A DNA stretch of 48,408 nt from contig JAFRWY010000007.1 in the NCBI GenBank assembly GCA_017437905.1, forward strand, positions 1 through 48,408, written 5' to 3'. Source of the stretch: Eubacterium sp. (GTDB lineage Bacteria; Bacillota; Clostridia; Lachnospirales; Lachnospiraceae). The notes under the pieces were generated by a model. It saw nothing but the letters and a program-made list of their open reading frames with translations. It did no database searches and was not told where the DNA came from. The stretch's first letter is position 1, and each line of letters starts with the position of its first letter. Below are positions 15,007 to 44,951 of this stretch, piece by piece. Position numbers and translations under genes: made by a program.

Positions 15007-15091
15007 ATGTATGGGTATATGTATCAGAATTTTGAAAAAGATTGTTTGAGAAATAGGAATACTCATGTGTTTTAAGAAAGGGCGGATCTTT

Positions 15092-24264: not shown

Positions 24265-24293
24265 TTGACGTTTTCGTCAGAATGTGTTAAACT
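24265..24293 (+). promoter_or_regulatory. Promoter for the PP2C gene, overlapping a small palindrome
   Basis: TTGACG (24265-24270), a 17-bp spacer and TAAACT (24288-24293) preceded by TGT, an extended -10. The -35 is part of TGACG-TTTT-CGTCA, an inverted repeat that could be an operator or a weak terminator for the gene before. Transcription would begin downstream of the ATG at 24284, supporting ATG 24323 as the start. Confidence 0.6.
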
Positions 24294-24322
24294 TTACCTA
24301 TCTATTTTGGGGGATTTGCACA

Positions 24323-25054: not shown

Positions 25055-25146
25055 TCACGGCAGCGGATCGAAGCAGGAGAGGGTCCGGGAGATGTCCGGA
25101 TCATTTGGTGATTTGAGAATAAGGGTAAATCGGAGAGTTTAGGACA

Positions 25147-27405
25147 ATGGTCATCAGACGTTGTATGAAGTGCATGAAGGAATTCTCGATTCCGGAAGGC
25201 CACGAAAATGAAAATTTTTGTTGTCCGCATTGTGGATTTGTAGAAGGAACACCACCGAAGGAATCGAATCATCTCTATCCGGGGATGGTTCTGCAGAACC
25301 GGTATCAGATCGGAATCGTTGTGGGTTTCGGTGGATTCGGAATCACGTATAAGGCATGGGACCGGGAACTCGGAATCGCTGTCGCTATCAAGGAGTACTA
25401 TCCCAGCGGCGTTGTAATGCGTGAGCCGGGCAAGAAGGAAGTCATCGTTTATGAGGGCAACCGGAAGGAAGAGTTCTACATCGGTCTGGAGCGTTTCCTG
25501 GAAGAAGCACGTCGTACGGCGCAGTTTGAACATAGTAAGCATATCGTCCAGGTAAAGAATTTCTTCCGTGAGAACAATACGGCTTACCTGGTTATGGAAT
25601 TCCTGGACGGCGCATCCGTCAAGGATTATCTGAAAATGAACAAGAAGATGCCCGTGAAGGATGCAGTGGCCGTAACGGATTCGGTGCTGGATGCTTTGAA
25701 GGAGATGCATGCGGCAGGAATCCTTCACCGTGATATCGGTCCGGGCAATATTTTCCTGTGCGGACGAAATGTCAAGATCATCGATTTCGGTGCAGCCAGA
25801 CTGTCTGACGGTGATAAGGAGGTGACACGTTCCGTAATCGTAACTCCCGGGTTCGCGCCGGCGGAGCAGTATCAGTCGAAGAGTAAGCAGGGTCCCTGGA
25901 CGGACCTTTATGCAGTCGCTGCAACCCTCTACAATATGGTTACCGGAAAGCGTCCGGACGAAAGTACGGATCGTATGATGGATGATCAGGTGGAGGATCC
26001 GGACAAACTGAACCCGGAGGTCTCTCACGAACTCAGCAATACCATCATGAAAGGTATGGCCGTGAATCCGAACCTGCGTTTCCGCTCGGTGGATGAATTC
26101 TCGGATGCACTTCATGAGAAAAAGAAGGTTGAGAATCCCAAGCAGGAACTGAAGAGACGTAAGAAACGCAGGATCATATCGATCGCTGCGGTTATTGCGG
26201 TTCTCCTCTTTGCGGCAGGCGTTGCAATTACGCTCTTCATGGATAATTACCATCGAACCCATCTTCGGGAGGCGGAGCTTTCAATCTGGATTCCGTATGA
26301 TAGTGCCCTATATACGGAGGAGCAGGCGAAAACGCATTATGAAGAGAGCGTATTCGCTGCATTTACGAGTGATGTAAATAATTCGAAGGTAACGCTGAGT
26401 ATCGTCTATATTCCCGAAAATGAATATTCAGCGAAACTGAGGGATGCGGTTGAGAAGGGGAATCTTCCGGCGGTGTTCATGATGGATGAACTGGATACGG
26501 AAATCCTGAAATATACCGAGTCCCTGAAAAGTGTATTTGGTGATGATGTACTTGAGGCAACGGATGATTTCTATTATCTGGATACCTACAAGTCTCTTTA
26601 CGGAGATCCGCAGGCACTTCCGACCGGAATCAATGTCCCGATCGTTTACGGTAACCGTTCCGGCAACAAGCAGTCCACGCTGGATGTTGACGGTGTGAAC
26701 GTAACCGGCCTGGCAAGTCTTAAGGATAATGGATCTGCCGGATACTATGTGTCCGGAAGGGTTTATTCGGAGTTTGTAAATTCACTGGGTGGAAGTTATA
26801 CCTATGACGGTAAACTCCGGCTGGATGATACGGCAAAGCAGACAGTGGAAGAATTCCGCAATTCTTCGGTTGCCCTGACGTACAATGCTTCCGATGCGGG
26901 AAATAACGTAAGTGGCGAAGGCGCCTATATCGACGGCCTGGCACTCGCTGCATTTGATGGGAATCAGATCGATTTCTATGTCGGCGATATCACGGATCTT
27001 CGTGTATTGAACCAGGATGATAAGGGCCTGGTCGGACGTTATGTGCCGAAGGCCATCCAGCAGGATAAGATTTATGCGGATTTCTGCGCATACTGGTGTA
27101 TCAGTGACGCGGCCGCATCCAAGAGCAGACCGGTGAAATACGCGGCAGAGCGTTTCCTGGTGTATCTGATGATCTCGGATTCCCAGAAGGCACATTTCCA
27201 TAATGATTACAAATCCGCATTACCGATCCGGAAGGATGCATATTCGGATATTGATGCCCAGTTGAAGTTTATCGAAACGGAGTATATGGGCAAGCTGCAG
27301 TTCCTCAAGGAGGATCGTGCGGCTGAGACCGCAGCATCTGTTCAGCTTCAGAAGGATGCAGTGATCGAAAAGAAGAAGACAGTACAGGAATGTCTGGGGG
27401 AATAA
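25147..27405 (+). CDS. Membrane Ser/Thr kinase with solute-binding-like ectodomain
   Basis: 752 residues. A zinc ribbon (CMKC near residue 6, CPHCG near 26) precedes a Hanks-type kinase domain (about 52-325) with VGFGGFGITYKA, AIKEYYP, LHRDIGPGN and IDFGAAR. The catalytic Asp, Asn and DFG are kept, but Gly replaces the usual Lys/Ser after HRD. A Lys/Arg-rich juxtamembrane stretch leads to one helix (about 343-363). The 390-residue extracellular part (LSIWIPYDSALYTEE, ALPTGINVPIVYGN) resembles family 1 solute-binding proteins, so the kinase may sense a ligand. Its stop is one base before the next kinase's ATG, implying coupled translation. Confidence 0.85.
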   Translation: MVIRRCMKCMKEFSIPEGHENENFCCPHCGFVEGTPPKESNHLYPGMVLQNRYQIGIVVGFGGFGITYKAWDRELGIAVAIKEYYPSGVVMREPGKKEVIVYEGNRKEEFYIGLERFLEEARRTAQFEHSKHIVQVKNFFRENNTAYLVMEFLDGASVKDYLKMNKKMPVKDAVAVTDSVLDALKEMHAAGILHRDIGPGNIFLCGRNVKIIDFGAARLSDGDKEVTRSVIVTPGFAPAEQYQSKSKQGPWTDLYAVAATLYNMVTGKRPDESTDRMMDDQVEDPDKLNPEVSHELSNTIMKGMAVNPNLRFRSVDEFSDALHEKKKVENPKQELKRRKKRRIISIAAVIAVLLFAAGVAITLFMDNYHRTHLREAELSIWIPYDSALYTEEQAKTHYEESVFAAFTSDVNNSKVTLSIVYIPENEYSAKLRDAVEKGNLPAVFMMDELDTEILKYTESLKSVFGDDVLEATDDFYYLDTYKSLYGDPQALPTGINVPIVYGNRSGNKQSTLDVDGVNVTGLASLKDNGSAGYYVSGRVYSEFVNSLGGSYTYDGKLRLDDTAKQTVEEFRNSSVALTYNASDAGNNVSGEGAYIDGLALAAFDGNQIDFYVGDITDLRVLNQDDKGLVGRYVPKAIQQDKIYADFCAYWCISDAAASKSRPVKYAAERFLVYLMISDSQKAHFHNDYKSALPIRKDAYSDIDAQLKFIETEYMGKLQFLKEDRAAETAASVQLQKDAVIEKKKTVQECLGE

Positions 27406-27406
27406 G

Positions 27407-30400
27407 ATGGGTAAGAAGAGATGTTTAGGCTGTATGGAAAGCTACGACGACGGATTCCAGGTCTGCCCGCATTGCGGTTATGTGGAAGGGACTCCGGCGA
27501 AGGAAGCGTATCATCTGGAGCCTGGAACCGTTCTGAATAAAAAATACACCGTCGGCCGTGTCCTCGGATACGGTGGATTCGGTGTCACCTATATCGGTTA
27601 CGATAATCTGATGAACCGCCGTGTGGCCATCAAGGAATATCTTCCGACGGAATTCTCCACCAGAAGTTCCGGTACCATTGCCATCACGATCTTCAGCGGC
27701 GAGAAGGAAGAGCAGTTCCTGAGCGGTATCGCCAAGTTCTCCGACGAGGCGAAGCGTCTGGCAAATCTGGAGCAGGTTCCGGGCGTTGTAAGGATCTATG
27801 ATACATTTACCGAGAACAACACCGCGTACATCGTCATGGAGTATCTGGACGGAGAGACTCTGAAGGAACGGCTGAAACGCGAGGAGAAAATTCCCGTAGA
27901 AGAAGCAGTCAAGATCATACTTCCGATTCTCGGAGCGCTGAAAGAAGTACATGCCAGCGGTCTTCTCCACAGGGATGTTTCGCCGGATAACATTTTCCTG
28001 ACCAGGGACGGTGATGTAAAACTGCTGGACTTTGGTGCGGCACGTTTTGCGACCACATCCCACAGCCGGAGTCTGTCCGTTATTGTAAAGGAAGGCTATG
28101 CTCCGGAAGAGCAGTATCGAAGCAAGGGCGAGCAGGGAACCTGGACGGATGTCTATGCCTGCGGCGCGACCCTGTATAAGATGATCACGGGCGTGACACC
28201 GGAAGGCGCCATGGAACGCCGTGAGAAGGATGAACTGCAGCGCCCGTCCAAGCTGGGCATCAAGATCGACCGCAGTACGGAAACGGCCATCATGAATGCC
28301 ATGAATATCCGCATCCAGGATCGTACACAGACCGCAGCGGATTTTGAGCGTGAGCTTACTTCCGAGACTACCGTTAAGACCAGAAAGAGTCATTTGAAAA
28401 CCGAGGACAGCGGCAAATGGCCCCGCTGGGTGAAGATGGCGATCGCCGGAGCCGGTTTGATCGTGGCAACGGTGCTTGTTTTGCTCCTCACCGGAATTAT
28501 TGAGATCGGAGGAGAAACCGGTGGAGGGGATAAACTGGCAGAAGATGAAGTTCGTATGCCCGGTGTCATGAATATATCCCAGGCAGAGGCATTGTCGATA
28601 CTTACGGCCAGTGAGCTTAATCCCAAAACGGAGAACGCATTATACAATGACAGTATTAAGGAAGGTTATATCATCTGGCAGCAGTACGCGCAGGGTGAAA
28701 TTCTGAAAAAACAGTCGACAGTGGAGATCCGTGCCAGCATCGGAACGCACGTGGAACCGTTGGTTGATCTGTCCGGAAAGACACAGCAGGAAGCGGAAGA
28801 ATTGCTGAAGGCTGCCGGATTTGAAAATGTTAAGATCGAGGAAGTTGCCAGCAGTACAAAGAAGGGACTGGTTGACAGGATGTCTCCGGAACCGGGAGCG
28901 GAGTATGCTGTAGATACGGAGATTATCCTGTATGTTTCCAGAGGTATGGATTATGATCCGACCAAGGAAACCACCATCCCGAATGTGATCGGTAAGACCC
29001 AGGAGGAAGCAAAGACTCTTGCGGAACAGCACAGAGTAGCGATTGAAGTAAAGGAAGCAGCGAAATACGATTCCTCGAAACCGGAGGGCGTGGTTGTTGA
29101 TCAGTCACCGGCCGGAGATACTCAGGGACATGAAGGTGATACGCTGATCATTTACATCAACAAGAAGAATCTTGTTAAGGTACCGAGCATCAAGAAGGGT
29201 GAAAGCAAGTCGGTTGTTGAATCCAGACTGAAGAGCGTTGGTCTTGTTCCGAAATTTGTATATCAGAAGTCTGAAGAGGCACGTGATACCGTTCTTTCGG
29301 TGAGTGTGGCATCCGGAACCGAAGTGGAGAAGGGTACAACCATCACCATTTATATATCCGATAAGGAAGAAGAAAAGGTTTCAGTTCCGTCGCTGATCGG
29401 TTCAACGGAAGACGCGGCAAAGAGTACTCTGAATCAGGCAGGCTTGAATGTCAGCATAAAATACGAAGAATCGACGAAAACCGCAGGAACGGTTCTGGCG
29501 CAGAATCCGTCATCCGGAACTAAGGTTGCAAAGGGCTCTTCTGTTACGATTACAGTGGCTAAAAAGGCCGCGGATCCTGAGGTGAAGGTTCCGAATCTGA
29601 TCGGACAGACGGAAGGAGGAGCAAAATCGTCTCTGAAAGCGGTAAATCTGAACTGTTCCGTAAAGTATGAAGAATCTTCCGATATGCCGGGAACCGTTAT
29701 TGGTCAGGGGACAATTGCGGGAACTATGGTTCCCGAAGGGACTACCGTAAGTATAACAGTGGCTAAGAAAGCCCCGGATCCGGTTGGTGATACAGTAAAT
29801 GTGCCCAACTTGATTGGAAAAACCCAATCGCAGGCGGAATCAGCACTCAGCAGCGTCGGATTGAAACTGGGATCTGTTACAGAAGAGGAATCAACCAAAA
29901 CGGAAGGTACTGTAATCAGACAGGGGACTTCTTCGGGAACTGAAGTTAAAAAGGGAACGTCAGTATCGATTACGATAGCTAAGGCACCTGTTGGAACGGG
30001 GGTGCCAGTTCCGGACTTGACAGGAAAGACAAAAGCACAGGCGGAATCTGCGCTCAGCAGCGTCGGATTGAAACTGGGATCTGTTACAGAAGAAGAATCA
30101 ACCAAAACGGCAGGAACCGTAATTAAACAGGGAACGGCAGCGGGTATCAAGGTGGAGAAAGGTACTTCCGTTTCGATCACGATTGCAAAGGGAGTGACTG
30201 AGATTCCAGTAAACGTTCCGGATCTCAGCAGTTACAGTGAGTCACAGGTGAAGTCAGTTCTCCAGGATGCCGGCTTGTCCCTTGGCACAATTACGAGAAA
30301 ACATGATACATCACATTCCACCGGAGATGTGATCGGCCAGAACCCGAAGGCCGGGAGTTCTGTCGCCAAGGGATCCACAGTAAATGTAACGATCTGTGAC

Positions 30401-30640
30401 AATACACAGGTAACGATGTACCGTTACAAAGAAGTGGTTGACTGGGAATACACAACGACAACTGTAAACTCAGCTCCCGGTTCGGATTGGGTGAAGGATA
30501 AGAACCCCACAACAGAAGGGGATGTAACTACCTATTACTGGAAGAAGGCTGTCTGGTCCGGCTGGTCTGAGTGGAGCACCGAGAAGGTGAAGCCGAACAG
30601 TGAGAGACAGGTTGAGACAGACGAACAGTATGTATATTGA
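27407..30640 (+). CDS. Membrane Ser/Thr kinase with nine PASTA repeats and Trp-rich C-terminus
   Basis: 1077 residues. N-terminal zinc ribbon (Cys 6, 9, 20, 23); Hanks kinase domain (about 48-310) with LGYGGFGVTYIG, AIKEYLP, LLHRDVSPDN and LDFGAAR; one membrane helix (about 342-366); nine PASTA-like repeats (about 380-1000); and a 75-residue end with AVWSGWSEWST and ERQVET. PASTA domains of PrkC/StkP-type kinases bind peptidoglycan; three to five is usual, so nine is long. Repeats seven and eight are nearly identical, 207 bp apart, a recent duplication. The C-terminal Trp module recurs in the surface protein at 44952. It likely senses wall state. Confidence 0.92.
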   Translation: MGKKRCLGCMESYDDGFQVCPHCGYVEGTPAKEAYHLEPGTVLNKKYTVGRVLGYGGFGVTYIGYDNLMNRRVAIKEYLPTEFSTRSSGTIAITIFSGEKEEQFLSGIAKFSDEAKRLANLEQVPGVVRIYDTFTENNTAYIVMEYLDGETLKERLKREEKIPVEEAVKIILPILGALKEVHASGLLHRDVSPDNIFLTRDGDVKLLDFGAARFATTSHSRSLSVIVKEGYAPEEQYRSKGEQGTWTDVYACGATLYKMITGVTPEGAMERREKDELQRPSKLGIKIDRSTETAIMNAMNIRIQDRTQTAADFERELTSETTVKTRKSHLKTEDSGKWPRWVKMAIAGAGLIVATVLVLLLTGIIEIGGETGGGDKLAEDEVRMPGVMNISQAEALSILTASELNPKTENALYNDSIKEGYIIWQQYAQGEILKKQSTVEIRASIGTHVEPLVDLSGKTQQEAEELLKAAGFENVKIEEVASSTKKGLVDRMSPEPGAEYAVDTEIILYVSRGMDYDPTKETTIPNVIGKTQEEAKTLAEQHRVAIEVKEAAKYDSSKPEGVVVDQSPAGDTQGHEGDTLIIYINKKNLVKVPSIKKGESKSVVESRLKSVGLVPKFVYQKSEEARDTVLSVSVASGTEVEKGTTITIYISDKEEEKVSVPSLIGSTEDAAKSTLNQAGLNVSIKYEESTKTAGTVLAQNPSSGTKVAKGSSVTITVAKKAADPEVKVPNLIGQTEGGAKSSLKAVNLNCSVKYEESSDMPGTVIGQGTIAGTMVPEGTTVSITVAKKAPDPVGDTVNVPNLIGKTQSQAESALSSVGLKLGSVTEEESTKTEGTVIRQGTSSGTEVKKGTSVSITIAKAPVGTGVPVPDLTGKTKAQAESALSSVGLKLGSVTEEESTKTAGTVIKQGTAAGIKVEKGTSVSITIAKGVTEIPVNVPDLSSYSESQVKSVLQDAGLSLGTITRKHDTSHSTGDVIGQNPKAGSSVAKGSTVNVTICDNTQVTMYRYKEVVDWEYTTTTVNSAPGSDWVKDKNPTTEGDVTTYYWKKAVWSGWSEWSTEKVKPNSERQVETDEQYVY

Positions 30641-30667
30641 TCGTACGTTTTTCGAGGTGTTATGAAA

Positions 30668-30696
30668 TCGAAAAAGGTATGAGCGGTTAGTATACT
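30668..30696 (+). promoter_or_regulatory. Candidate promoter for the response regulator gene
   Basis: TCGAAA (30668-30673), a 17-bp spacer and TATACT (30691-30696), 25 bp before the start codon at 30721. The -35 matches TTGAAA at five of six positions. Confidence 0.45.
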
Positions 30697-30720
30697 GATC
30701 AGATGTAACAGAGGTGAGTT

Positions 30721-31410
30721 ATGCTTCAGATAGCTTTGTGTGATGATGACAGGAAAGATCTGGATCGGATCAGCGAGATCGTGAGCAAAACGCTCTTCGA
30801 TGTGGAGGATATCCAGATCAAGGCATATGACAGCGGAAAGGCTCTGATTGACGCACTGGAAGAGAATCCGGGAAGTGTCGATCTTTTGCTGCTGGACATC
30901 GGTATGGAGCCGGTGGACGGCATGGAAGCGGCTGCATATATCCGGGATCATAAGCTGGATATGGACATCATTTTCATAACGAAATCGACGGAGCATGTCT
31001 ACCGGGGATATCAGTTTCGGGCATATGCCTACATTCTGAAGGAACGGATCGAACAGGATATTCCGACAGAACTTCTTCGCTACCTGGAGGAACTGTCCCT
31101 CAGTGAGGCGTATCTGAATATTACGATTTCCGGAGAACTTCACAGAATTCCGGTTTCGTCTATCCGCTACATAGAAAGTGACGGCAGAAAGCTGATCCTT
31201 CACAGAAATGAGGACGAAATCTCGTTCTACAGCAAGATGACGGATATTGAGGAGGATATGATGAAGCAGGGCTTCCTCCGTATCCACCAGAGTTACATGG
31301 TTGCAAAGAAGGAGGTCTGCTCCGTCAGAAAGGATACCGTAGTTCTGAAGGACACGGAGCTTCCTGTGAGCAGAAGATATGCGGATCAGACGAAGAAGGC
31401 CTTCGAATAA
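30721..31410 (+). CDS. LytTR-family response regulator
   Basis: 229 residues. The receiver domain (about 1-120) has the acidic triad CDDD (8-10), phosphoacceptor Asp59 in LLLLDIGMEP, and the conserved Thr/Ser and Lys in FITKSTEHV and YILKERI. A LytTR DNA-binding domain (about 130-229) follows, with IRYIESDGRKLILH and FLRIHQSYMVA. Such regulators (AgrA, VirR) control peptide-responsive or surface genes. No histidine kinase is encoded in the window, so the partner is elsewhere, or the receiver is addressed by the Ser/Thr kinases here. GAGGTGAG precedes the ATG. Confidence 0.92.
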   Translation: MLQIALCDDDRKDLDRISEIVSKTLFDVEDIQIKAYDSGKALIDALEENPGSVDLLLLDIGMEPVDGMEAAAYIRDHKLDMDIIFITKSTEHVYRGYQFRAYAYILKERIEQDIPTELLRYLEELSLSEAYLNITISGELHRIPVSSIRYIESDGRKLILHRNEDEISFYSKMTDIEEDMMKQGFLRIHQSYMVAKKEVCSVRKDTVVLKDTELPVSRRYADQTKKAFE

Positions 31411-31440
31411 GGCCCGTTCAGGAAAGGATGGGGTGAATAT

Positions 31441-31815
31441 ATGCTTGCAAACAGAAGGGGTGAAACAGCATCCGTAACAAAGAGTCTTGCCATGAATCGC
31501 GAGGAATGCGGGACTATCATCGGCGTAAAGGGTGAACTGACGGGGAAGTATTTCCGCTTCCTGCCACACGAGAAGGTTCTGATCGGAAAGGATAAAACAC
31601 AGTGCGATCTGTGCCTGTCGGATGCCAGGATTAGTCGTATCCATTGTGAGGTTTATTTTAACGCGGATAAGAAGTGTTATTCCGTAAAGGATGTTTCGAA
31701 GAACGGAGTCGTTCTTGATAATAAAGCGAAACTGAAGAAAGATGTTCTGACGGATGTTCCACCCGGAAGCCATCTCTTTATTGGCAGCACGGATGATGAA
31801 GTCGTACTGGGATAA
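31441..31815 (+). CDS. Small FHA-domain protein
   Basis: 124 residues, almost all of it one FHA domain: VLIGKDKTQCDLCL, ISRIHCEVYF with the Ser-Arg-x-His, and VKDVSKNGVVLDN. The first 25 residues include a Thr/Ser-rich stretch that could be phosphorylated. With no membrane helix it resembles a stand-alone adaptor such as GarA. It lies 30 bases after the response regulator gene and just before the FHA membrane protein at 31842, so the three are probably one transcript. Partner and target are unknown. Confidence 0.85.
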   Translation: MLANRRGETASVTKSLAMNREECGTIIGVKGELTGKYFRFLPHEKVLIGKDKTQCDLCLSDARISRIHCEVYFNADKKCYSVKDVSKNGVVLDNKAKLKKDVLTDVPPGSHLFIGSTDDEVVLG

Positions 31816-31841
31816 TCTGTGATAATGTGAGGATGAACAGG

Positions 31842-33524
31842 ATGAAGATGAAGAAAAGAATTATCATAGGGTTGATGTTCGTGCTGGTGGCTGTTGCAGC
31901 ATTTATGATGAATGGGACTGCGAGGGCAGAGAATGAACTAAGTGCAGATAGTGTTAAGACTCAAATTGAAGGGTTAGAGAAATATAGCACTTTTTTTGGC
32001 CAAAGATATAATGAGCTTTCTCAGGACGATCATGATGAATTGAAAAGTATTGATGAGAACCTCAAGGAAATCAATGGGACCATAGGCGATGGTGAGGAAA
32101 TTTCGGAGGAAGAACTGGAACGATACTCATACACCATCAAACTGATGGAGTATAAATACAACTGTCTGGTTTTGAATTATAGGTGTAATAAATCCAATCT
32201 TAACTGGGGTGAATCACAGGTAGAAGATGTTCGGCAGGAAATAATAAATAATGAAGGTAGTGTTAAATCTGGTGAGGACTTTGGTAACAAGGTGACAGAT
32301 CTGGGATATGAAATCAGACGGATTAACATTTTTATTACTTATAATGAGATTAAAGAGGTTCAAGACAAGGAAAAAATCAGTTTATCTGAAGACAATCAGT
32401 CTAAAATGACTGACTTGGAAGATGATCTGAACCAGGGGAGTTTGTATGAAAAAATAGAAAGAGTAATAAATCAAAACCATGATAAGACAGAAACGGATGA
32501 ATTGATCGGAAGATTTGAAAAACATGAAGAAAAACTGAACGATATTATAGTTGAATTGTGTGAGAAGCTTAAAACTAAGTATACTACGATTGATTCATGG
32601 AATTATGGATCAGAAGGCTTGTCTGTAAATAAAATAGAAAAAACGAATGAATCCGGCGATCAGGAGGGGATGATTCTTTCCATAACTGCATCAGAGTATC
32701 CGGGAACAGGAGTAAAGAGTATATCTTTATTAGATGTTGAAGTTCTAAAGATAGATTCCTCCCCAACAGACCCGAAAGAAGATAACACGGAACCAGGTAC
32801 CGAAGAAGAACCCAAAACAGAGGCTACAACGGGTAAACCTGCAGGCAAAGATACCGGAAAGACAGAGGCTGACACGAATACTCAAGAAGGAGAGAAAAAC
32901 GGGACAGGCAACTGGTTCAAAGAACACCTTGTATTAGTCATCATTGTCTTCTCATCCTTCATAATCCTTCTCATCCTTCTGATCGTTCTTCTCTCGATCC
33001 GTTCGAAGAACAAGAGAAAGGAAATCGCTGAGAAGAGAAGACGTCTGATTAAAGAAAGGGACGATGAGAAAACCCGGTTGTTACAACAACAAAGCACATC
33101 GGCATCGTCCGGAAATATCAGAATAAACCAGGCTCCTATGCAGGGCGGATCGAATACTATGAATGATCCGAACCGGGGCGTTCTGTTCGCGGATGACAGC
33201 GAGGAGCAGACACTTCTTCTGGATCAGATTCAGTCCAAAGGAATCAATGTATATCTGACATTAAATGGAACGAATGAAGTATCGCTCCTGCTTCAGGGTC
33301 GTGCAATCATCGGCCGGGGTAATGAATGTGATGTACAGGTTACGGATCCCGGATTCTCACGAAGGCATTTTATGCTGGAATGGGATGGCGAGAGTGTCTA
33401 TGTAAGTGATCTGGGCACGACAAACGGAACAGTGATGAACGGCGTCCGTCTCCGCCATAAGAGGAGACTGGAACCCGGAGACGTATTGAAGGTTGGATCC
33501 ACAGAGATCAGAATCAGGTGGTAA
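31842..33524 (+). CDS. Membrane protein with helical ectodomain and C-terminal cytoplasmic FHA
   Basis: 560 residues from ATG 31842 (TGAGG nine bases upstream; a GTG at 31827 is in frame). A signal peptide or anchor ends near TARAENE. An extracellular region of about 330 residues is highly charged and probably coiled-coil. A Thr/Glu/Lys linker leads to a helix (about 363-387), then a basic segment and a cytoplasmic FHA domain (about 465-560) with IIGRGNECDVQV, FSRRHFMLEW and DLGTTNGTVMNG. Topology is opposite to the proteins at 13136 and 23145. EEQTLLLD just before the FHA may be a kinase site. It could couple an outside signal to phosphothreonine binding. Confidence 0.8.
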   Translation: MKMKKRIIIGLMFVLVAVAAFMMNGTARAENELSADSVKTQIEGLEKYSTFFGQRYNELSQDDHDELKSIDENLKEINGTIGDGEEISEEELERYSYTIKLMEYKYNCLVLNYRCNKSNLNWGESQVEDVRQEIINNEGSVKSGEDFGNKVTDLGYEIRRINIFITYNEIKEVQDKEKISLSEDNQSKMTDLEDDLNQGSLYEKIERVINQNHDKTETDELIGRFEKHEEKLNDIIVELCEKLKTKYTTIDSWNYGSEGLSVNKIEKTNESGDQEGMILSITASEYPGTGVKSISLLDVEVLKIDSSPTDPKEDNTEPGTEEEPKTEATTGKPAGKDTGKTEADTNTQEGEKNGTGNWFKEHLVLVIIVFSSFIILLILLIVLLSIRSKNKRKEIAEKRRRLIKERDDEKTRLLQQQSTSASSGNIRINQAPMQGGSNTMNDPNRGVLFADDSEEQTLLLDQIQSKGINVYLTLNGTNEVSLLLQGRAIIGRGNECDVQVTDPGFSRRHFMLEWDGESVYVSDLGTTNGTVMNGVRLRHKRRLEPGDVLKVGSTEIRIRW

Positions 33525-33526
33525 GA

Positions 33527-34927
33527 TTGAACGAACGATATTATTTAAGTGAAAACGCACAATTACATAACAGATATATCGTGCAGAAACCGGTTGGCGC
33601 CGGTGGGTTCGGAATTACCTACAAGGCATATGACCGTATGAAGAACCAGCCGTGCTGCATCAAGGAATTGTTCCCGAGAGATACAGTTTACCGCGTACAG
33701 AACAGCATGTCTCTGGCACCGCTTTCTGCCGATAAAAAGGGAATGATGGAGCACTGTATCCAGCGATTCGGAGAGGAAGCTCAGGTCCTTCAGAAACTGA
33801 ATTCCGTCAAGTCCGTTGTGGATATCTATGATTTCTTCTATGAGAATGAAACCTGTTATTTCGTGATGGAATTTCTGGATGGAATGAATCTGAAATCCGC
33901 CATGAAGAAAATGGGAGGAAAACTGGAAGCGGCTCTGGTCTGGGATGTGGCTGAACAGGCAGGAAATGCACTGGTTCAGGTCCACAGGATGGGAATCTTT
34001 CACAGGGATATCTCGCCGGATAACATCTTTATCACAAGACAGGGCAGGATCAAGATCATAGATTTTGGTAACGCCAAGCACCTGGTAAAGCAGTATGGGG
34101 AGATTCATTCAGTCGTTCTTAAGAAGGGGTACTCTCCGATCGAACAGTATTCCTCCAAGGGCGTGCAGGGAACCTATACGGATGTGTATGCATTTGCGTT
34201 CACGCTTTATCATGCACTGACAGGGATCAAACCCCCGGATGTATTTGACAGGCAGTCGAAGGATTACACCAAGCTGGTAGAACTCGGATTCCAACAAAAC
34301 ATTTCGGATGTATTTGATCGTGCGCTGATCATAAATGCAAAACAACGTACGCAGACGGTGGGACAGTTCCTGGCTGAATTATTACCGTTAGTCAGGCGCG
34401 TCAATAAAAATGAGGTTACTCCGGGAACAACTTCGGTTTCAGTGAAAACTGGATCCGGCGCAGGGAAAGGCAAGACCGGTGGAGGAACTGCCGACGGAAA
34501 GAGTGATATTCTAAGTAAGGATCTCGGGCCGTCGGATAAGACCAGTCGTACAGAAAAGCCTTCGGATAAACCTAATACACCCAGAACGCCTGGAACTATT
34601 ATGCCCACTGCGAAAAACCCTGCCATTGAGGTTGTGGTTAACAATCGTTCGATCGGACAATTCAAGATTCGTCCGAATGTGAATATTTCGATTGGCCGGA
34701 CACCAACGAAATCCAGTTTCGTGGTAGATGAGATTCATATCAGCGGACTCCATTGTGAGATCAGATATGCAACAGTAGATCGAAAGTTTTATATCGTGGA
34801 TCGTTCCACCAACGGGACCTATATTAATGGGGTACGTATCAAACCCGGAGGATATGTTGCAGCAAAAGCAAAGGATAAGATCGCTCTTGGAAGCACAAAT
34901 GCAATTCTTATTTTAAAGGAAGTATAA
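33527..34927 (+). CDS. Soluble Ser/Thr kinase fused to an FHA domain
   Basis: 466 residues from TTG 33527, which has AGGTGG at 33515-33520; an upstream in-frame GTG at 33518 lacks a site. The kinase domain (about 10-280) has VGAGGFGITYKA, CIKELFP, FHRDISPDN and IDFGNAK, all key residues kept. A Ser/Thr/Pro/Gly-rich linker (about 300-370) contains many possible phosphosites. The FHA domain (about 375-466) has ISIGRTPTKSSFV and DRSTNGTYINGV, but ISGLHCEI has Gly where FHA normally has Arg. There is no membrane helix, so it is cytosolic. It overlaps the end of the preceding gene region and is followed four bases later by PP2C. Confidence 0.9.
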   Translation: MNERYYLSENAQLHNRYIVQKPVGAGGFGITYKAYDRMKNQPCCIKELFPRDTVYRVQNSMSLAPLSADKKGMMEHCIQRFGEEAQVLQKLNSVKSVVDIYDFFYENETCYFVMEFLDGMNLKSAMKKMGGKLEAALVWDVAEQAGNALVQVHRMGIFHRDISPDNIFITRQGRIKIIDFGNAKHLVKQYGEIHSVVLKKGYSPIEQYSSKGVQGTYTDVYAFAFTLYHALTGIKPPDVFDRQSKDYTKLVELGFQQNISDVFDRALIINAKQRTQTVGQFLAELLPLVRRVNKNEVTPGTTSVSVKTGSGAGKGKTGGGTADGKSDILSKDLGPSDKTSRTEKPSDKPNTPRTPGTIMPTAKNPAIEVVVNNRSIGQFKIRPNVNISIGRTPTKSSFVVDEIHISGLHCEIRYATVDRKFYIVDRSTNGTYINGVRIKPGGYVAAKAKDKIALGSTNAILILKEV

Positions 34928-34931
34928 TCAT

Positions 34932-35777
34932 ATGCCAAATCAAATTGAGATATCGGATGAACCTACGATCCTTGTGTCGACTCCGGAAATGAAGATGGAT
35001 GGTTTCTCACTGAAGATGAGTTTTTCCAATATTCTCGGGACCAGAAAGAATCAGCAGGACACCGTGTTCGGCCACGTGGACGGGAATCGCTCCATTGCCG
35101 TTGTCTGTGACGGAATGGGTGGATTGAATGGCGGAGAGATGGCCAGCCAGACCGCAGCGGGGATTCTTTTGAACGATTTTTACAATGAAAAGCCCGATTC
35201 TGACATTCCGGAGTTTTTTCGCAGAGAAGCGTATAAAATGAATGATGCAGTGAGGAACTTAAAGAATGCCAAGGGAGAGCCGCTGGATGGAGGAACTACC
35301 ATAGTTGCAACCATCACGGTAGATGATAAGGTTTACTGGCTTTCCGTGGGTGACAGCAAGATCTACCTCATTCGCGAGAACAATATCAAGGCTGTTTGCA
35401 AGGAACACAATGTGAGAACCAAGATCAATGAACAGCTGAAGGCAGGCGTTATCACGCAGCAGGAGTATAAGAAGGAAGAGCGACAGGCCGAGGCACTGAC
35501 CAGTTATCTGGGAATTCCGAGTCTGGAGCTGATGGAGATCAATAAAAAGCCCTTCATCCTGAAGGAAAACGACATCCTTCTTCTCTGCAGTGACGGACTC
35601 TACAAATGTCTGTCGGAGAAGGATATTGCGAACATCGTGTATTACGAAGAGCCTGATATGGAAAGGGCTGCGCGAAGACTGCTGGATGTGGTCGTGAAAA
35701 AGAGGAAGAGAGCGCAGGATAATACGTCACTTGTGATCATGCAGTACAATAAAGTACTAAGCGATAAATCTATTTAA
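34932..35777 (+). CDS. PP2C-family Ser/Thr phosphatase
   Basis: 281 residues. Motifs: GTRKNQQDTVFG, VVCDGMGGLNGGEMAS (metal Asp60), GGTTIVATI, LSVGDSKIYLI, LLCSDGLYKCL and DNTSLVIMQY. It is cytosolic and has an N-terminal extension of about 30 residues, SDEPTILVSTPEM, that may hold a regulatory threonine. It begins four bases after the kinase-FHA gene, so the two are translationally close and probably a matched kinase/phosphatase pair. It is distinct from the PP2C at 24323, which pairs with the membrane kinases. Confidence 0.92.
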   Translation: MPNQIEISDEPTILVSTPEMKMDGFSLKMSFSNILGTRKNQQDTVFGHVDGNRSIAVVCDGMGGLNGGEMASQTAAGILLNDFYNEKPDSDIPEFFRREAYKMNDAVRNLKNAKGEPLDGGTTIVATITVDDKVYWLSVGDSKIYLIRENNIKAVCKEHNVRTKINEQLKAGVITQQEYKKEERQAEALTSYLGIPSLELMEINKKPFILKENDILLLCSDGLYKCLSEKDIANIVYYEEPDMERAARRLLDVVVKKRKRAQDNTSLVIMQYNKVLSDKSI

Positions 35778-35795
35778 TTTTAAGGAGGAGAGATT

Positions 35796-36476
35796 ATGAA
35801 CCTTGTGAGATGTGAAAGTGGACACTTCTATGATGCGGATCGTTTTCAGAGCTGCCCGCACTGTGTGGGAGGACCTGCTCCCGCCGGTGGCCCTATGGGT
35901 GGTGGTATGATGGATGCAACTGCTCCGTACACGAATTTTGATAACAGTGATGTCTTCGATAATCCGACAGCTGCCGTTACCATGCCGGCAAATAATCCGG
36001 TTCCGCCTATGTTTGAGGCGCAGCAGACGGTATCTGACGCAGGCCTTGATGTGTTCAAGGACTTTGAAGAGGAATCAGATGACGACAAGACCACCAGAGC
36101 TATTATGGGTGATATGAATGATGAACCTGTCGTTGGCTGGCTGGTATGCGTTACCGGAGAAGAGAAGGGTAAGAGCTATACACTGAAGAGCGGCCGTAAC
36201 TTTGTCGGAAGAGGCGATGATCAGGACGTAGTGATCAAGGGTGACCAGAGCATTTCCAGAAGTAAGCATGTAATCCTTCTTTATGATCCGAAGTCCCGTC
36301 AGTTCCTGGTACAGCCGGGTGAATCCCATGAGCTGTCCTATCTGAATGATGAGGTGATCCTGAATCCGGCGAAGCTCAGCCTGATGGATAAGCTTCAGAT
36401 CGGTGAGACCAAGCTGATCTTTGTACCGCTCTGCGGACCGGAATTTGCATGGGAAGACCTGGCTGGCGCTGAATAA
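35796..36476 (+). CDS. FHA protein with CxxGH...CPxC N-terminus
   Basis: 226 residues. The N-terminus, RCESGHFYDADRFQSCPHC, is a probable small zinc-binding element shared with the genes at 37484 and 42820. A Gly/Pro/Ala-rich linker with many Thr follows (about 28-100). An FHA domain (about 110-215) has NFVGRGDDQDVVI and SISRSKHVILLY. This has Ser-Arg-Ser-Lys-His, one residue longer than the normal spacing, so phosphothreonine binding may be altered. DDKTTRAIMG just before the FHA resembles a GarA-type phosphosite. No membrane helix is seen. AAGGAGGAG precedes the ATG. Confidence 0.8.
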   Translation: MNLVRCESGHFYDADRFQSCPHCVGGPAPAGGPMGGGMMDATAPYTNFDNSDVFDNPTAAVTMPANNPVPPMFEAQQTVSDAGLDVFKDFEEESDDDKTTRAIMGDMNDEPVVGWLVCVTGEEKGKSYTLKSGRNFVGRGDDQDVVIKGDQSISRSKHVILLYDPKSRQFLVQPGESHELSYLNDEVILNPAKLSLMDKLQIGETKLIFVPLCGPEFAWEDLAGAE

Positions 36477-36494
36477 TCGAAAGGGGACCAGGAT

Positions 36495-37394
36495 ATGAAA
36501 GTAACTATACGTGATTCCCATCATGGAGTCCAGGAGTTCGATCTGGAGCGGATGGGGAAGGACAGTCTGGCATTCGGACGTATGCCGGAGTGTGATATTG
36601 TTCTTCATTCTGCATTTGTATCCAGACCGCATGGTATCATCTATCGTGAGAACGGCAACTGGTACATCCAGGATATGAAGAGTACCTATGGTACCTATTA
36701 CATGGATCGTCCCATCGAGAAGATGCCCATCACGGACGGAACCGTGATCCGGCTTTATTCCGAGAATAAGGACAGCAACCATTGCGTGGAAATGCGGTTT
36801 ACTGAGCCGTATATCCCACCGGAACCGCAGTACAATCCGCCGCAGCCGCCGCCATATATCCCCCCGGAACCGGATCCGGATCCATATTATCCGCCGGATG
36901 AACCCGGAATGTCTCCGTTCGCGTTGATCTCGCTGATCTCCGGATGTCTGTCCATTATCCTGTTCTTCATTTGCTCGAAGACAGGTGTATGGCTTCCGCT
37001 TCTGTTCGCCCTGGTTGCAGTTGCATTTGCAATCGTTGCACTTGTAGGCGGGAGATCCAAGGGAATGTCCATTACAGGCGTCTGCACAGGTGGTCTGGTA
37101 TTTATCCTCTCTATCTGGCTGCTGATCTGCTCCGGATGCATCGGACCTTTCTCCTGGTGCGTTGAGGGAAGAAAGTTCCCGTTGTCAACTCCGTTGGCAC
37201 ATGTGTTTGATACGGCTGACAGCATCGATAACTCCTTCGATAGCATATCAGATGAGGAAGCAGCTGAAATCTTCACAGATAAGGACGCTTTAAAGCTGAT
37301 AGAGGAAATCTATTTCGGAGAAGCGGCTAATGTAGTGGACGAATACGTGGATGACTTAGACATCGATTTGGATGATTTGGATGACTTGTTCTAA
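36495..37394 (+). CDS. FHA-domain polytopic membrane protein (DUF4190-like)
   Basis: 299 residues. The FHA domain (about 1-98) has FGRMPECDIVL, VSRPHGIIY and KSTYGTYYM, close to the paralogues at 13136 and 23145. A Pro/Tyr-rich linker, EPQYNPPQPPPYIPPEPD, follows. Three membrane helices (about 139-158, 163-184 and 192-213) resemble DUF4190. The acidic C-terminal tail ends with repeated Asp-Leu-Asp. It starts 18 bases after the preceding FHA gene, and a strong terminator lies just downstream, so it ends a transcript. Function is not known. Confidence 0.82.
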   Translation: MKVTIRDSHHGVQEFDLERMGKDSLAFGRMPECDIVLHSAFVSRPHGIIYRENGNWYIQDMKSTYGTYYMDRPIEKMPITDGTVIRLYSENKDSNHCVEMRFTEPYIPPEPQYNPPQPPPYIPPEPDPDPYYPPDEPGMSPFALISLISGCLSIILFFICSKTGVWLPLLFALVAVAFAIVALVGGRSKGMSITGVCTGGLVFILSIWLLICSGCIGPFSWCVEGRKFPLSTPLAHVFDTADSIDNSFDSISDEEAAEIFTDKDALKLIEEIYFGEAANVVDEYVDDLDIDLDDLDDLF

Positions 37395-38921: not shown

Positions 38922-41900
38922 ATGATAAAAGCCAGGAAAAATGTAGTTTGGATGAGTGCTTTGATCGTTGGAATCCTTCTTTTATTGTTCCTGCTCCGTC
39001 AAGAAGCCTTCGCAGCGGGATCATCTGTGCAAATGTCAAAGGTGGCTGCAGAGGGAGAAGACGAAGAAGAGCAGGTGGAAATTGAAGAGTTGCGGTCGTT
39101 TGGAGCATCTCTTTGTATAAAAGTAGGAGAGACAAGACAGTCTCGTATCAGCACAAACCCGTCGATAGAGGATTTCTCTGTCCTGAAGTGGGAATCAGAG
39201 GATGAATCGATTGTAACTACTGACGAATATGGATCTCTGACAGGTGTTTCAGAAGGACTTTCACGAATCCATGTATCAACGAGGGATGGAAAGAAAACGT
39301 GTGCATTTTCTGTTGTGGTTGTCACAGAGAAGGGAATTCCTGTTGATGAAGCGCATTTTCCTGATGAGGTATTTCGCAGTTATATCAGACAGTATGTTGA
39401 TGTGATGAATCATGATGATTATTTGTCACAGATTGAAATCGAATCAGTTGTTGATTTGAGTTATTCGTTTGATTGGTCCGGTGCAGTCAGTCTGAAGGGA
39501 ATCGAGTATTTCCCGAGAATTCAGCATCTGGATCAGATTGAACTGTCGGTCAAAACACTGGATTTATCGTACAATCTTGATTTGGTTGTCTTCAATATTG
39601 AAGGTGGACAGCTAGAGGAACTGTCTTTTGGAGAAAATGGGAATATCGATCGGATACAATGTAATGATAATCAACTGAAACTGTTGGACGTTGCCGGATG
39701 CTCAAATCTCAGACGATTGGAATGTTATAATAACAATCTGGAAGAACTGGATCTGGAAAAATGTGATCTTATGGACATGCTATTGTGTCAGAATAATCAA
39801 TTGAAACATTTGATTATTGATCAGAAAGAGAGGCTAATGGAGATTGATGTAAGCTACAATAATCTGGAGTTGTTAAGGATCACGAATTGTACCAGATTGC
39901 TTTCCGTAAAATGTTCGAACAGTCAGTTGACGGAAGTTGTGCTGTCCGGATGTGAGAGAATAGAAGAGTTTGACTGCTCTGATAATCAATTGACAGAGCT
40001 TACACTTGAAGATGACAATGAGTTAAAATTCATTCGCTGTAGTAACAATCAACTGAAATCCCTGGATTTAAGAAAATTGAGTCGTTTGATGGAAGTGTAT
40101 TGTGCCCATAATAACCTCGAAGAAATACACTTTGGGGATGCGGTTTATGTGGATTGCTCCTACAATCAATTAGAGAGTTTATCTTCTGAGGAAAATAACA
40201 ATCTGGGAACTCTTCTTTGTAATAACAATCGTCTGAAGAGCCTGGATCTGTCTTTGAACAGTGGAGAATTAAGCGTGTTGGATTGTTCTCATAATGAACT
40301 GGAGGAACTGACCAGTAGCGCACTCCAACTGAATTGTTCATACAATCATTTGAAATCACTGAATACCGGCGGAGGGTGGAGTGCGACGCTGGATTGTTCT
40401 CACAATGAGCTGACTTCACTGGAATTCACGGGTGGCGTGGGAGTGGCGGAGCTGATCTGTGATGATAACCAGCTGACCGTATTGGATTTGGGAACGGCAG
40501 CTCCGGTGAAGAAGATCAGTGCCAGGAACAATCAGCTTCGGTGTATCGATCTAAGAAATGCAACGTTTCTGGAATCCTGTGAGCTGGATGACAGCACGAT
40601 CATCATTGATGCAGAGCATGGCCTCAAATGGCGGGAACAGAACGGAAATACCTATTATATCGAGGAACTTGGCGTATGGCCGAGATATACAAGAGTCGTT
40701 ACCGGCTGGAGAGAAATCGATGGGACAGAGTATTTCTTTACGCCGGAAGGTGTTCTGGTGGAGGACGCCATCCGTCTGAACGATGTGAGAATTCGCCAGA
40801 CCGAACTGGAGCTGACCCCCTGGGATACGGAAACGCTTACTGCGATCACCAATCCTGCGGATTTTCCAACGGATTCTCTTGTATGGTCTTCGGAGGATGA
40901 GAGTATAGCAGTTGTAGACAAGACGGGTACCGTGACTCCGGTCTCCACAGGAACCACATTTATCACAGTGTCCTCTGTCTATGATGACAGTGTGTCCTAT
41001 ACGCTCCGGGTGACAGTACGGGACCTCCTGTCCTTTGAAACTCTGCAGATGGATCTGATCCCGGATGAACATCATCAGTTCTATGTAAAGGAGAGCACAT
41101 CACTGGTAACCGGGATCTCGTGGGAGATCAAGGACCCGGGGATTGCGAAGATCTCCGAGGAAGGAGAAGTGACTGCACTCAGTGAAGGAGTGACAGAACT
41201 CGTGATCCATGTAACCGGATCCGGTGGCAGGAAGGAGACTTATACGATTCCGATCACGGTCACAGCTCTGGATTCGGTGGATCTGAATGTGGACAGGATC
41301 GAATTCAGACAGATGGAAACGCTTACGTGGCCGTCTGAGATGGAGTGCGTGGTTGACCAGGTCATAAATATCGATGTTATGGTTTATGTCTCGGATCCTT
41401 TATCCGGTCAGGAAACATCTTACCTGCTGACTTATGACAATCCGGTGGCAGGAACCGGTGCAGGCTTTATCCGTCTGATCTGGAGCTCGACGAATCCGGA
41501 AGTGGCAAGTGTTACGAAGGGACGTGTAGAGATCCGATCGAAGGGAACCGCATTTATCACGGCACAGGTTCTGGGACTGAACGTATCCTCCATGATGGAT
41601 CTTACCGCAAACGGGAAACCGGTACCGCTTAGATCCATAGCCCTTTCCGAATCGGTATATCCTATGAATGTGGGGGCATCGAAGACATTTGCCTACACAC
41701 TGAGTCCCCGGAACGTGGATGAGGATCAGAAGAAGATCCTTTGGAAGACGAGTGATCCGGAGGTGGCAACCGTTGATGCAAACGGCAGAGTGACTGCAGT
41801 GGGATCCGGTATGGCCGAGATCGAGGCGTATTCGGCAGTCGATGATAATATCTATTCCTCCGTTCAGATCTATGTACAGTCACCGGTTGAATCCATAACC

Positions 41901-42782
41901 ATGGAAGAGATCGAGATACAGGAAAGCGATGTGGGCTTTGAAGTTGTGCGAAAGATCAGCGACGGGGATGTGATCTCACTGAAGCATGGTATCGAGAAGA
42001 ACCTGATGATCAGTGCCTATGTAAATGAGTCCGCTGACAAGAAGCTCCTTGCATACGAACTGGATCCGGAGGATGGATCTCTGTCGGTAGAACAGATCGA
42101 GTTCGATTCGGAGGAGATTCCGGACGGACGGAATTTCTTCCGGATCACAGCAGATCAGGTGGGAGAAACAAAAGTATTCATCCGTTCCACGGATGGAAGC
42201 GGTATCTACGGAAGCTTTACTGTAAAGATTCTTCCGTATAATGAATGGATCACTGAGGCGGATGGTACGAAGCGTCATTTTACGGAGGATGTGATGGACA
42301 CCGGCTGGAAGCAGATCGATGGAAAGAAGTACTACTTCTCCGCCAAGGGCGTTCTGCAGACCGGCTGGAAAGAGATCGATAAAAAATGGTACTACTTCGG
42401 GAAAGACGGTGTGACACGCACTGGCTGGCAGAAGATCGGCAAATGGTACTTCTTCGGCGCCGATGGAGTCATGAAGACCGGCTGGCAGAAGTCCGGCGGC
42501 AAATGGTATTATCTCGGAACCGATGGGATCATGCGTACGGGCTGGCAGAAGATCGGGAAAAGCTGGTATTATTTCGGAGCCGACGGGATCATGCGAACCG
42601 GCTGGCAGAAGGTTGGGAAGAACTGGTATTTCTTCAGCAATGGCGTTATGAAGACCGGCTGGCTAAGGAGCGGCGGCTTCTGGTATTATTTCGATTCCCG
42701 GGGAGTGATGGTTACAGGAAACCGGAAGATCGGAACGAAAATCTATCAGTTCAGTTCGGCCGGAATCTGCCTGAATCCGTAA
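38922..42782 (+). CDS. Secreted LRR / Ig-like / wall-binding-repeat surface protein
   Basis: 1286 residues. A signal peptide ends near EAFAAG. A bacterial Ig-like domain (about 50-138) precedes a degenerate EF-hand-like segment (VDVMNHDDYLSQIEIE) and about 18 short leucine-rich repeats (about 165-560) of the CSNNQLKSLDL type. One wall-repeat follows, then several Ig-like (BIG2) domains (about 615-1090) with WSSEDESIAVVD motifs. Eight C-terminal choline/glucan-binding-type repeats (GWQKIGKSWYYFGADGIMRT) end it. It should be exported and held non-covalently on the wall, as an adhesin or receptor. GGGAGGA precedes the ATG. The LRR part is AT-richer than the repeats. Confidence 0.88.
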   Translation: MIKARKNVVWMSALIVGILLLLFLLRQEAFAAGSSVQMSKVAAEGEDEEEQVEIEELRSFGASLCIKVGETRQSRISTNPSIEDFSVLKWESEDESIVTTDEYGSLTGVSEGLSRIHVSTRDGKKTCAFSVVVVTEKGIPVDEAHFPDEVFRSYIRQYVDVMNHDDYLSQIEIESVVDLSYSFDWSGAVSLKGIEYFPRIQHLDQIELSVKTLDLSYNLDLVVFNIEGGQLEELSFGENGNIDRIQCNDNQLKLLDVAGCSNLRRLECYNNNLEELDLEKCDLMDMLLCQNNQLKHLIIDQKERLMEIDVSYNNLELLRITNCTRLLSVKCSNSQLTEVVLSGCERIEEFDCSDNQLTELTLEDDNELKFIRCSNNQLKSLDLRKLSRLMEVYCAHNNLEEIHFGDAVYVDCSYNQLESLSSEENNNLGTLLCNNNRLKSLDLSLNSGELSVLDCSHNELEELTSSALQLNCSYNHLKSLNTGGGWSATLDCSHNELTSLEFTGGVGVAELICDDNQLTVLDLGTAAPVKKISARNNQLRCIDLRNATFLESCELDDSTIIIDAEHGLKWREQNGNTYYIEELGVWPRYTRVVTGWREIDGTEYFFTPEGVLVEDAIRLNDVRIRQTELELTPWDTETLTAITNPADFPTDSLVWSSEDESIAVVDKTGTVTPVSTGTTFITVSSVYDDSVSYTLRVTVRDLLSFETLQMDLIPDEHHQFYVKESTSLVTGISWEIKDPGIAKISEEGEVTALSEGVTELVIHVTGSGGRKETYTIPITVTALDSVDLNVDRIEFRQMETLTWPSEMECVVDQVINIDVMVYVSDPLSGQETSYLLTYDNPVAGTGAGFIRLIWSSTNPEVASVTKGRVEIRSKGTAFITAQVLGLNVSSMMDLTANGKPVPLRSIALSESVYPMNVGASKTFAYTLSPRNVDEDQKKILWKTSDPEVATVDANGRVTAVGSGMAEIEAYSAVDDNIYSSVQIYVQSPVESITMEEIEIQESDVGFEVVRKISDGDVISLKHGIEKNLMISAYVNESADKKLLAYELDPEDGSLSVEQIEFDSEEIPDGRNFFRITADQVGETKVFIRSTDGSGIYGSFTVKILPYNEWITEADGTKRHFTEDVMDTGWKQIDGKKYYFSAKGVLQTGWKEIDKKWYYFGKDGVTRTGWQKIGKWYFFGADGVMKTGWQKSGGKWYYLGTDGIMRTGWQKIGKSWYYFGADGIMRTGWQKVGKNWYFFSNGVMKTGWLRSGGFWYYFDSRGVMVTGNRKIGTKIYQFSSAGICLNP

Positions 42783-44581: not shown

Positions 44582-44689
44582 GGCAAGTGGTATTATTTCG
44601 GAGCCGACGGGATCATGCGTGCCGGCAGTCTGAAGATCCTTACGAAGACCTACAGTTTCAGCAGTTCGGGAGTGTGTCAGAATCCGTAA
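44582..44689 (+). pseudogene. Remnant of a wall-binding-repeat protein C-terminus
   Basis: Codons from 44582 read GKWYYFGADGIMRAGSLKI, then KTYSFSSSGVCQNP and a stop at 44687. This matches the last repeats of the protein at 38922 (KIYQFSSAGICLNP). A run of about 30 bases around 44589-44619 is almost identical to DNA near 42566-42596. There is no start codon or full domain. It is probably left from recombination between repeat-bearing genes. Confidence 0.7.
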
Positions 44690-44705: not shown

Positions 44706-44734
44706 TTGACGTTTCAAGGGATAAAGACTATAAT
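44706..44734 (+). promoter_or_regulatory. Consensus promoter upstream of the c-di-GMP riboswitch
   Basis: TTGACG (44706-44711), a 17-bp spacer and perfect TATAAT (44729-44734). Transcription would start near 44741, just before the aptamer. Confidence 0.85.
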
Positions 44735-44749
44735 CGTATTATAATTGAA

Positions 44750-44815
44750 TTGTTGGCAAAACATGGGAAACCATGCGACGCAAAGCTAGAAGGGCCTGTA
44801 AAATGGCAGCCAGCT
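44750..44815 (+). promoter_or_regulatory. Cyclic di-GMP-I (GEMM) riboswitch aptamer
   Basis: The class I c-di-GMP aptamer core is clear: GGCAAAACATGG, a GAAA tetraloop closed by CATGG/CCATG, GCGACGCAAAGCTA, a GGGCCT receptor region and ATGGCAGCCAGCTGC. Its 5' end lies about ten bases after the predicted transcription start and a terminator follows at 44831-44874, so it should control the surface protein gene at 44952. The segment 44774-44783 (TGCGACGCAA) is an exact complement of 44839-44848 in the terminator. That suggests free RNA forms an antiterminator and ligand binding releases the terminator (an OFF switch); the direction is inference. Confidence 0.92.
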
Positions 44816-44830
44816 GCACCGGATATGAAT

Positions 44831-44874
44831 AAAAGCACTTGCGTCGCAGGATTCTGTGGAGCAGGTGCTTTTTT
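44831..44874 (+). terminator. Riboswitch expression-platform terminator
   Basis: AAAAGCACTTGC (44831-44842) pairs with GCAGGTGCTTTT (44861-44872); an inner stem CGCAG/CTGTG caps it with loop GATT, and T residues run to 44874. It lies 16 bases after the aptamer and 78 bases before the start codon at 44952. Confidence 0.88.
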
Positions 44875-44951
44875 GTTATCACAGGGAGGGGCATTTGTTG
44901 ATTGTCAACAGGAACAAATAAGGTGACGGGTGAGATGGGAGGACAGTATCT

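Follow-up and report, generated by a model that had tools for sequence, protein, structure and literature searches.

A c-di-GMP-I riboswitch with a predicted transcriptional OFF switch ahead of a surface-protein gene in Eubacterium sp.

A c-di-GMP-I riboswitch, with a ten-base strand in its aptamer that is exactly complementary to the arm of a downstream terminator, lies towards the end of a 48,408-base stretch of Eubacterium sp. DNA (the window, here meaning the whole stretch analysed). It very probably acts as a transcriptional OFF switch, in which c-di-GMP promotes termination before a surface-protein gene. A preliminary description of this DNA had proposed such an element, and the present analysis supports it on the feature and on the likely direction of control.

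Across the window, the only gathering-level Rfam match is to RF01051 (c-di-GMP-I, GEMM-I), at 44745–44821 on the forward strand, with a covariance-model score of 47.7 bits (gathering score, 35), and spanning model positions 1–87. This bears out the c-di-GMP-I identity first suggested. The element had been placed at 44750–44874, a location that holds, but the aptamer edge has moved, as its true start is 44745. RF01051 is also the best match of the aptamer within its clan; the 59-bit gathering cut-off of RF03167 (c-di-GMP-I-GGC) was not reached anywhere in the window, nor was any overlapping match of the clan reported as left out. RF03167 resembles the window aptamer in having a short P3 (its model has 80 positions), and differs in its consensus, GACGCGAAgC, where the window has GACGCAAAGC at the same place.

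The window aptamer is 77 nt long because its P3 is short, a compact form assigned from the covariance-model score and from pairing across the compact aptamers of the genus. Both the RF01051 model and folding place a P2 hairpin with a GAAA tetraloop at 44762–44775. By alignment to RF01051, and in Vc2 numbering, the equivalents of G20, A47 and C92 are all present: G20 is a G at 44755, while A47 (an A in GACGCAAAGC) and C92 (a C in CUGC) were read by eye. Inspection by eye alone found no convincing P1 helix.

The choice of ligand depends largely on the first of these bases, which was read at RF01051 model position 11; the Bc1 counterpart, G11, corresponds to Vc2 G20 (PMC11218506). The 3.1-Mb genome to which the window belongs contains 41 GGDEF matches, 40 of them above cut-off. 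Given these matches, the G at the Vc2 G20 position and the other binding bases, c-di-GMP is therefore the expected ligand of the riboswitch, as predicted from its sequence. The GGDEF matches do not themselves decide between c-di-GMP and cGAMP, because GGDEF proteins that make cGAMP exist. That the window RNA senses 3′,3′-cGAMP, or both dinucleotides, instead of c-di-GMP is nevertheless most unlikely: although A occupies the G20 position in 25 of the 67 genus aptamers, a class I RNA carrying G20A binds cGAMP (PMC6274999), and G20 is described as contributing to selectivity without being a hard filter (PMC9262584), the base is G in the window and in the three other riboswitches of the same genome. 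A cGAMP-type GEMM-I was rejected for the window copy, model position 11 being G and not A.

The genus aptamers with A at this position include those of loci L039–L041, L044, L046–L048, L050–L052, L054–L056, L066 and L074, and three in L060. Riboswitches for cGAMP are known in several Gram-negative bacteria (PMC9262584), and these relatives, probably Lachnospiraceae, may be cGAMP-responsive or dual switches.

A consensus promoter and a long terminator had been said to flank the aptamer. A putative sigma-70-type promoter, TTGACG-17-TATAAT, lies at 44706–44734 on the forward strand as a scan match only; it agrees with 11 of 12 consensus positions and is the best promoter-like site of the region, but such sites number three against 2.5 expected from shuffles, so that the match stands while the number of sites is no higher than in shuffled sequence. 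Its use in the cell is presumed. The long terminator is plainly present, as an 18-bp hairpin at 44831–44872 within an intrinsic terminator at 44831–44878 (forward strand) that has a U-rich 3′ end. In its stem, 44831–44842 and 44844–44849 pair with 44854–44859 and 44861–44872, and the hairpin folded alone reaches −26.4 kcal/mol (z −7.25; 0/200 shuffles). A simple terminator scan of the region, with an unbroken stem, a loop of 3–8 bases and five Ts within eight as its criteria, returned no sites.

The strand TGCGACGCAA at 44774–44783, at the end of P2 and in the ligand-binding junction, is the exact reverse complement of TTGCGTCGCA at 44839–44848, which belongs to the terminator 5′ arm (44831–44849), both on the forward strand. 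The ten-base complement is thus as first described; its assignment to the ligand-binding core is right for the junction, but the last two bases of the P2 3′ strand are also part of it. Inside the terminator 5′ arm, all of the ten complementary bases but one (44843) take part in pairs. A chance complement was rejected: the core–leader duplex has an energy z of −4.9, with none of 200 dinucleotide shuffles as low, and the frequency of a contiguous complement of at least ten bases is 0.0003 in mononucleotide shuffles and 0.0009 when leaders are swapped. The window terminator has three wobble pairs, and each of them falls at a 5′-arm base that forms a Watson–Crick pair with the aptamer (about 0.1 by chance, from a hand calculation).

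With the aptamer ending at 44821 and the terminator beginning only at 44831, the two have no base in common, whereas the antiterminator takes one strand from the aptamer (44774–44783) and one from the terminator (44839–44848); the arrangement is therefore that of an OFF switch. In the predicted folds the terminator is compatible with the aptamer, and the antiterminator excludes both the ligand-bound junction and the terminator. The opposite arrangement, an ON switch in which ligand prevents termination, has precedent in Bc3-5 of Bacillus thuringiensis, ON c-di-GMP-I switches in which the terminator is predicted to draw on the binding-site C, the P1 stem and a portion of P3 (PMC4759541). In the window it is the antiterminator that the shared strand builds, and as there is no aptamer–terminator overlap, ligand binding cannot block the terminator directly; an ON switch was rejected on these grounds, and there is very little chance indeed that the window holds one.

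Folding by transcript length gives a more detailed picture of the competition. At 3′ ends from 44848 through 44864, the minimum-energy fold is the antiterminator. Its advantage is 2 to 6 kcal/mol over a fold with only P2 and P3 forced, and 5 to 9 kcal/mol over one in which the two junction pairs (44756–44781 and 44757–44780) are forced as well. P2 and P3 can largely persist beside the antiterminator, but the junction and ligand pocket cannot. The two pairings had been presented as mutually exclusive, which is accurate for the junction pairs and ligand pocket and not for the P2 and P3 helices. The terminator is favoured from a 3′ end of 44868 onward, and at 44878 the energies are −46.2 kcal/mol unconstrained, −42.3 kcal/mol with P2, P3 and the junction forced, and −36.6 kcal/mol for the antiterminator, a predicted advantage of 6 to 10 kcal/mol for the full-length terminator over the antiterminator. 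In these models, the full-length leader terminates at equilibrium with or without ligand. Read-through in the ligand-free state must therefore be kinetic, because the terminator is the better structure at full length. The OFF direction in the preliminary description agrees with the overlap logic, but the complement alone would not turn the gene on in the absence of ligand, since the terminator wins at full length.

On the mechanism proposed here, the RNA would start at its own promoter, a few bases ahead of the aptamer. Binding of c-di-GMP before 44839–44848 is transcribed would lock the junction strand 44774–44783 in the aptamer, leaving the downstream strand free to form the terminator hairpin, and transcription would stop ahead of the surface-protein gene. 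With no ligand bound, 44839–44848 would pair with 44774–44783 on emerging from the polymerase. This would open the binding pocket, and the resulting antiterminator would hold the terminator 5′ arm for long enough to let the polymerase pass. Such a leader would be a clean OFF switch for c-di-GMP, its switching strand being short and exactly delimited.

The strength of the terminator also allows another explanation, that it forms regardless of ligand, the leader being either a constitutive attenuator or a decayed switch whose dynamic range is small. Its 6 to 10 kcal/mol lead at full length and the absence of a good P1 by eye would fit this, but decay would not be expected to leave an exact ten-base complement and an intact set of binding-pocket bases. 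Moreover, in the Cd1 riboswitch of Clostridioides difficile no P1 was detected either, and the published account has an antiterminator that is stable only transiently, before the RNA refolds into the terminator (PMC9262584). Ligand-independent termination is accordingly judged unlikely, and the OFF switch preferred.

Relatives of the window riboswitch provide further evidence for the strand exchange. RF01051 is present in 29 of the 41 genomes searched (own, genus and order), with four matches in the window's own genome. The genus set consists of 67 aptamers, including the window and its three sister copies, with matches outside the genus left out; 66 are distinct, as L054 and L055, at contig ends, are identical. 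In 11 of the 67, window included, no more than 2 of 200 shuffles match the core–leader duplex, against an expectation of about one such aptamer. The complement covers the base before GAC in ten of these 11, with C opposite G in four and U opposite A in six. The same complementary pattern fits L072, which is cut by a contig end, and L186, from another genus of the family, has GUCAC in the core and GUGAC in the terminator arm. These compensatory changes in relatives support the predicted competing pairings. Over the terminator set, 14 of 23 wobbles fall at 5′-arm bases that pair Watson–Crick with the aptamer, a proportion that has no chance control; one L060 terminator was left out of this set, and L093 is a ten-base case with no terminator.

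A wider set of 118 distinct aptamers tells rather against the exchange at seven contiguous bases, which 11 reach against about 3 to 6 expected, though four reach ten bases, against about 0.1 or fewer. This set comprises loci fitting a regular expression, which misses unusual aptamers, and the family sample within the work covers 30 loci and 40 regions among the matches listed. On the same side, several copies come from one genome (three from G015, and two each from G002 and G005).

The exchange is not universal. The core–leader complement is absent from the other three riboswitches of the window's genome (z +1.3, +0.7 and +1.4), and the window terminator arm pairs equally well with 21 of the 66 other aptamers (z −0.67), because the aptamer core is conserved. 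L084 has a terminator arm of the window type, GCGTC, but with C opposite A, a mismatch, and the copy at G015:C22:45990 has GCGCCAC, also with a mismatch. The terminator search gave none for seven of the 67 genus aptamers. Other strands appear to be used elsewhere: in L039–L041 the terminator is complementary to the 5′ core strand, and only two other aptamers pair as well, whereas in L042, L044, L045 and L046 it is perhaps complementary to the P3 3′ strand, for which the other-aptamer control gives no support. As far as these comparisons extend, the switching platform of the window appears as one of several, conserved in part of the genus.

Some loci in the set differ from the window in their arrangement. 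At L071:4951-5110, a c-di-GMP-I aptamer whose core has a ten-base complement lacks a clear terminator and has a ribosome-binding site nearby; it may be a translational version of the core strand exchange. Tandem c-di-GMP-I riboswitches are also found, three starting within 1 kb in L045 and two lying 312 bases apart in L071, and L102, L104 and L120 contain arrays of aptamers spaced at about 110–160 bases. Four c-di-GMP-I riboswitches occupy about 18 kb of L060 (G015:C22:41947-61946), among genes for an SPFH protein, a BspA-type LRR protein and three TIR-domain proteins; this is possibly a c-di-GMP-controlled signalling or defence cluster.

The compact P3 of the window aptamer recurs in the genus, and its predicted P2 and P3 helices are supported by covariation. 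Among 23 distinct compact genus aptamers, 97.7% of the model-structure cells are paired, 68 cells are changed on both sides and covariation is 0.551 compared with 0.215 in shuffles, values matched in each case by none of 500 shuffles. The number of pairs with a both-side change (10 of 17; 73/500 shuffles as high) and of further pair types (23; 137/500 as high) is not clearly above shuffles. All 24 compact genus aptamers have the GAAA tetraloop. CTAA, taken as a marker of the tetraloop receptor, occurs within P3 in 27 of the 43 longer aptamers and in none of the 24 compact ones (anywhere in the aptamer, in 31 of 43 and 5 of 24, respectively). In its place the compact aptamers have a short conserved apical P3 loop close to CCTKTNANATGG, or roughly UKUNANAU between CC and GG, with exceptions such as L037.

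A compact P3 special to the genus was rejected, as the pattern also occurs with Rfam-covered aptamers in other genomes of the class. It is found in 25 of 391 class genomes, at least one locus per pattern-bearing genome having been scanned with Rfam, and a c-di-GMP-I or c-di-GMP-I-GGC match covers it in 16 of the 25 (own genome included); read backwards, the pattern matched eight genomes, and the remaining nine of the 25 are therefore probably chance. Some of the compact aptamers from other genomes score best with RF03167. A more speculative reading, possible but doubtful as a whole, is that of a compact clostridial c-di-GMP-I subtype, in which the receptor has been reduced to an 8-nt apical loop that docks the GAAA tetraloop and, in the genus, the terminator 5′ arm keeps wobbles so as to remain an exact complement of the ligand-binding junction. 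If true, the compact aptamer would represent a structurally undescribed tetraloop receptor; in the parts of the open-access literature covered, no description of the short P3 loop as a reduced tetraloop receptor was found.

The presumed target of the switch is the gene that begins at 44952 on the forward strand and runs to 48407, where it is cut by the contig end. The product had been described as an LRR/Ig-like wall protein, of which the Ig-like part stands, as Big_2 is above its Pfam cut-off, but the LRR match, at 22 bits against a cut-off of 27, does not reach it; choline-binding repeats are also above cut-off. A protein search returned one locus, in Lachnospiraceae bacterium AC2029, with 55% in the best segment; no orthology with the wall protein is claimed for it. 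Just ahead of the putative promoter, at 44585–44689, the sequence looks like a leftover 3′ end from a choline-binding-repeat gene (ending in KWYYFGADGIMRAGSLKILTKTYSFSSSGVCQNP and a stop) and is similar to the end of the gene at 38922–42782, which suggests past recombination at this site.

Choline-binding-repeat proteins, with 164 matches in the genome, follow three of its four riboswitches (the window, L034 and L036), and the gene after the fourth, L035, has no Pfam match. In the genus set, four of the 67 aptamers (L054, L055, L072 and L081) have no ORF of at least 60 aa in the DNA covered. Among the first ORFs of the other 63, the Pfam count sets aside nine, either duplicates or short and doubtful (L045:1231, L048, L049, L051, L052, L064, one L071 duplicate, L071:5080 and L078). 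The resulting 54 include 12 with Choline_bind_3, 12 with the N_methyl prepilin motif, six with HTH_17, and two each with PP2C_2 and Pkinase. Choline-binding-repeat, prepilin-like, PP2C and kinase targets across the genus may thus sketch a cell-surface regulon under c-di-GMP control. The profile search of the 3.1-Mb genome gave no PilZ match, and with its many GGDEF matches, riboswitches may be among the main c-di-GMP outputs of this organism.

A dense Ser/Thr phospho-signalling locus occupies 13112–37394 of the window, with kinases at 25147, 27407 (nine PASTA stretches) and 33518 (kinase and FHA), PP2C genes at 24284 and 34932, several FHA proteins, and a clostripain-family protease at 15065; six of the genome's 16 FHA matches are in the window. 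The suggestion that the riboswitch links c-di-GMP to this adjoining locus is not upheld. The kinase, FHA and PP2C genes (24284–37394) are upstream of the putative promoter of the riboswitch, which lies downstream of the locus, and they are therefore probably not its target; a regulatory link from the riboswitch to these genes was rejected. Elsewhere in the genus, the first ORF after the riboswitch is a PP2C, FHA or kinase gene in L037, L059, L062 and L080, that of L059 encoding an FHA protein. No paper on a c-di-GMP riboswitch with PP2C and FHA was found in the open-access literature covered.

The closest parallel to the window is Cd1, from the flagellar operon of C. difficile, a transcriptional OFF switch of the kind proposed here. 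As PMC9262584 describes it, the Cd1 aptamer and terminator can coexist, and compete with an antiterminator built from an aptamer strand and a switching strand, as in the window. The likeness is at the level of mechanism, and the controlled genes differ, Cd1 governing flagella while the window riboswitch precedes a surface-protein gene. Class I c-di-GMP switches of C. difficile are transcriptional OFF switches according to PMC11477304, and one of them stands before the calcium-binding adhesion protein CD2797, a surface adhesin, which belongs to another gene family and another organism than the window gene. The window riboswitch is a well-supported, ordinary member of its class, with a predicted mechanism that is already known from Clostridioides difficile.
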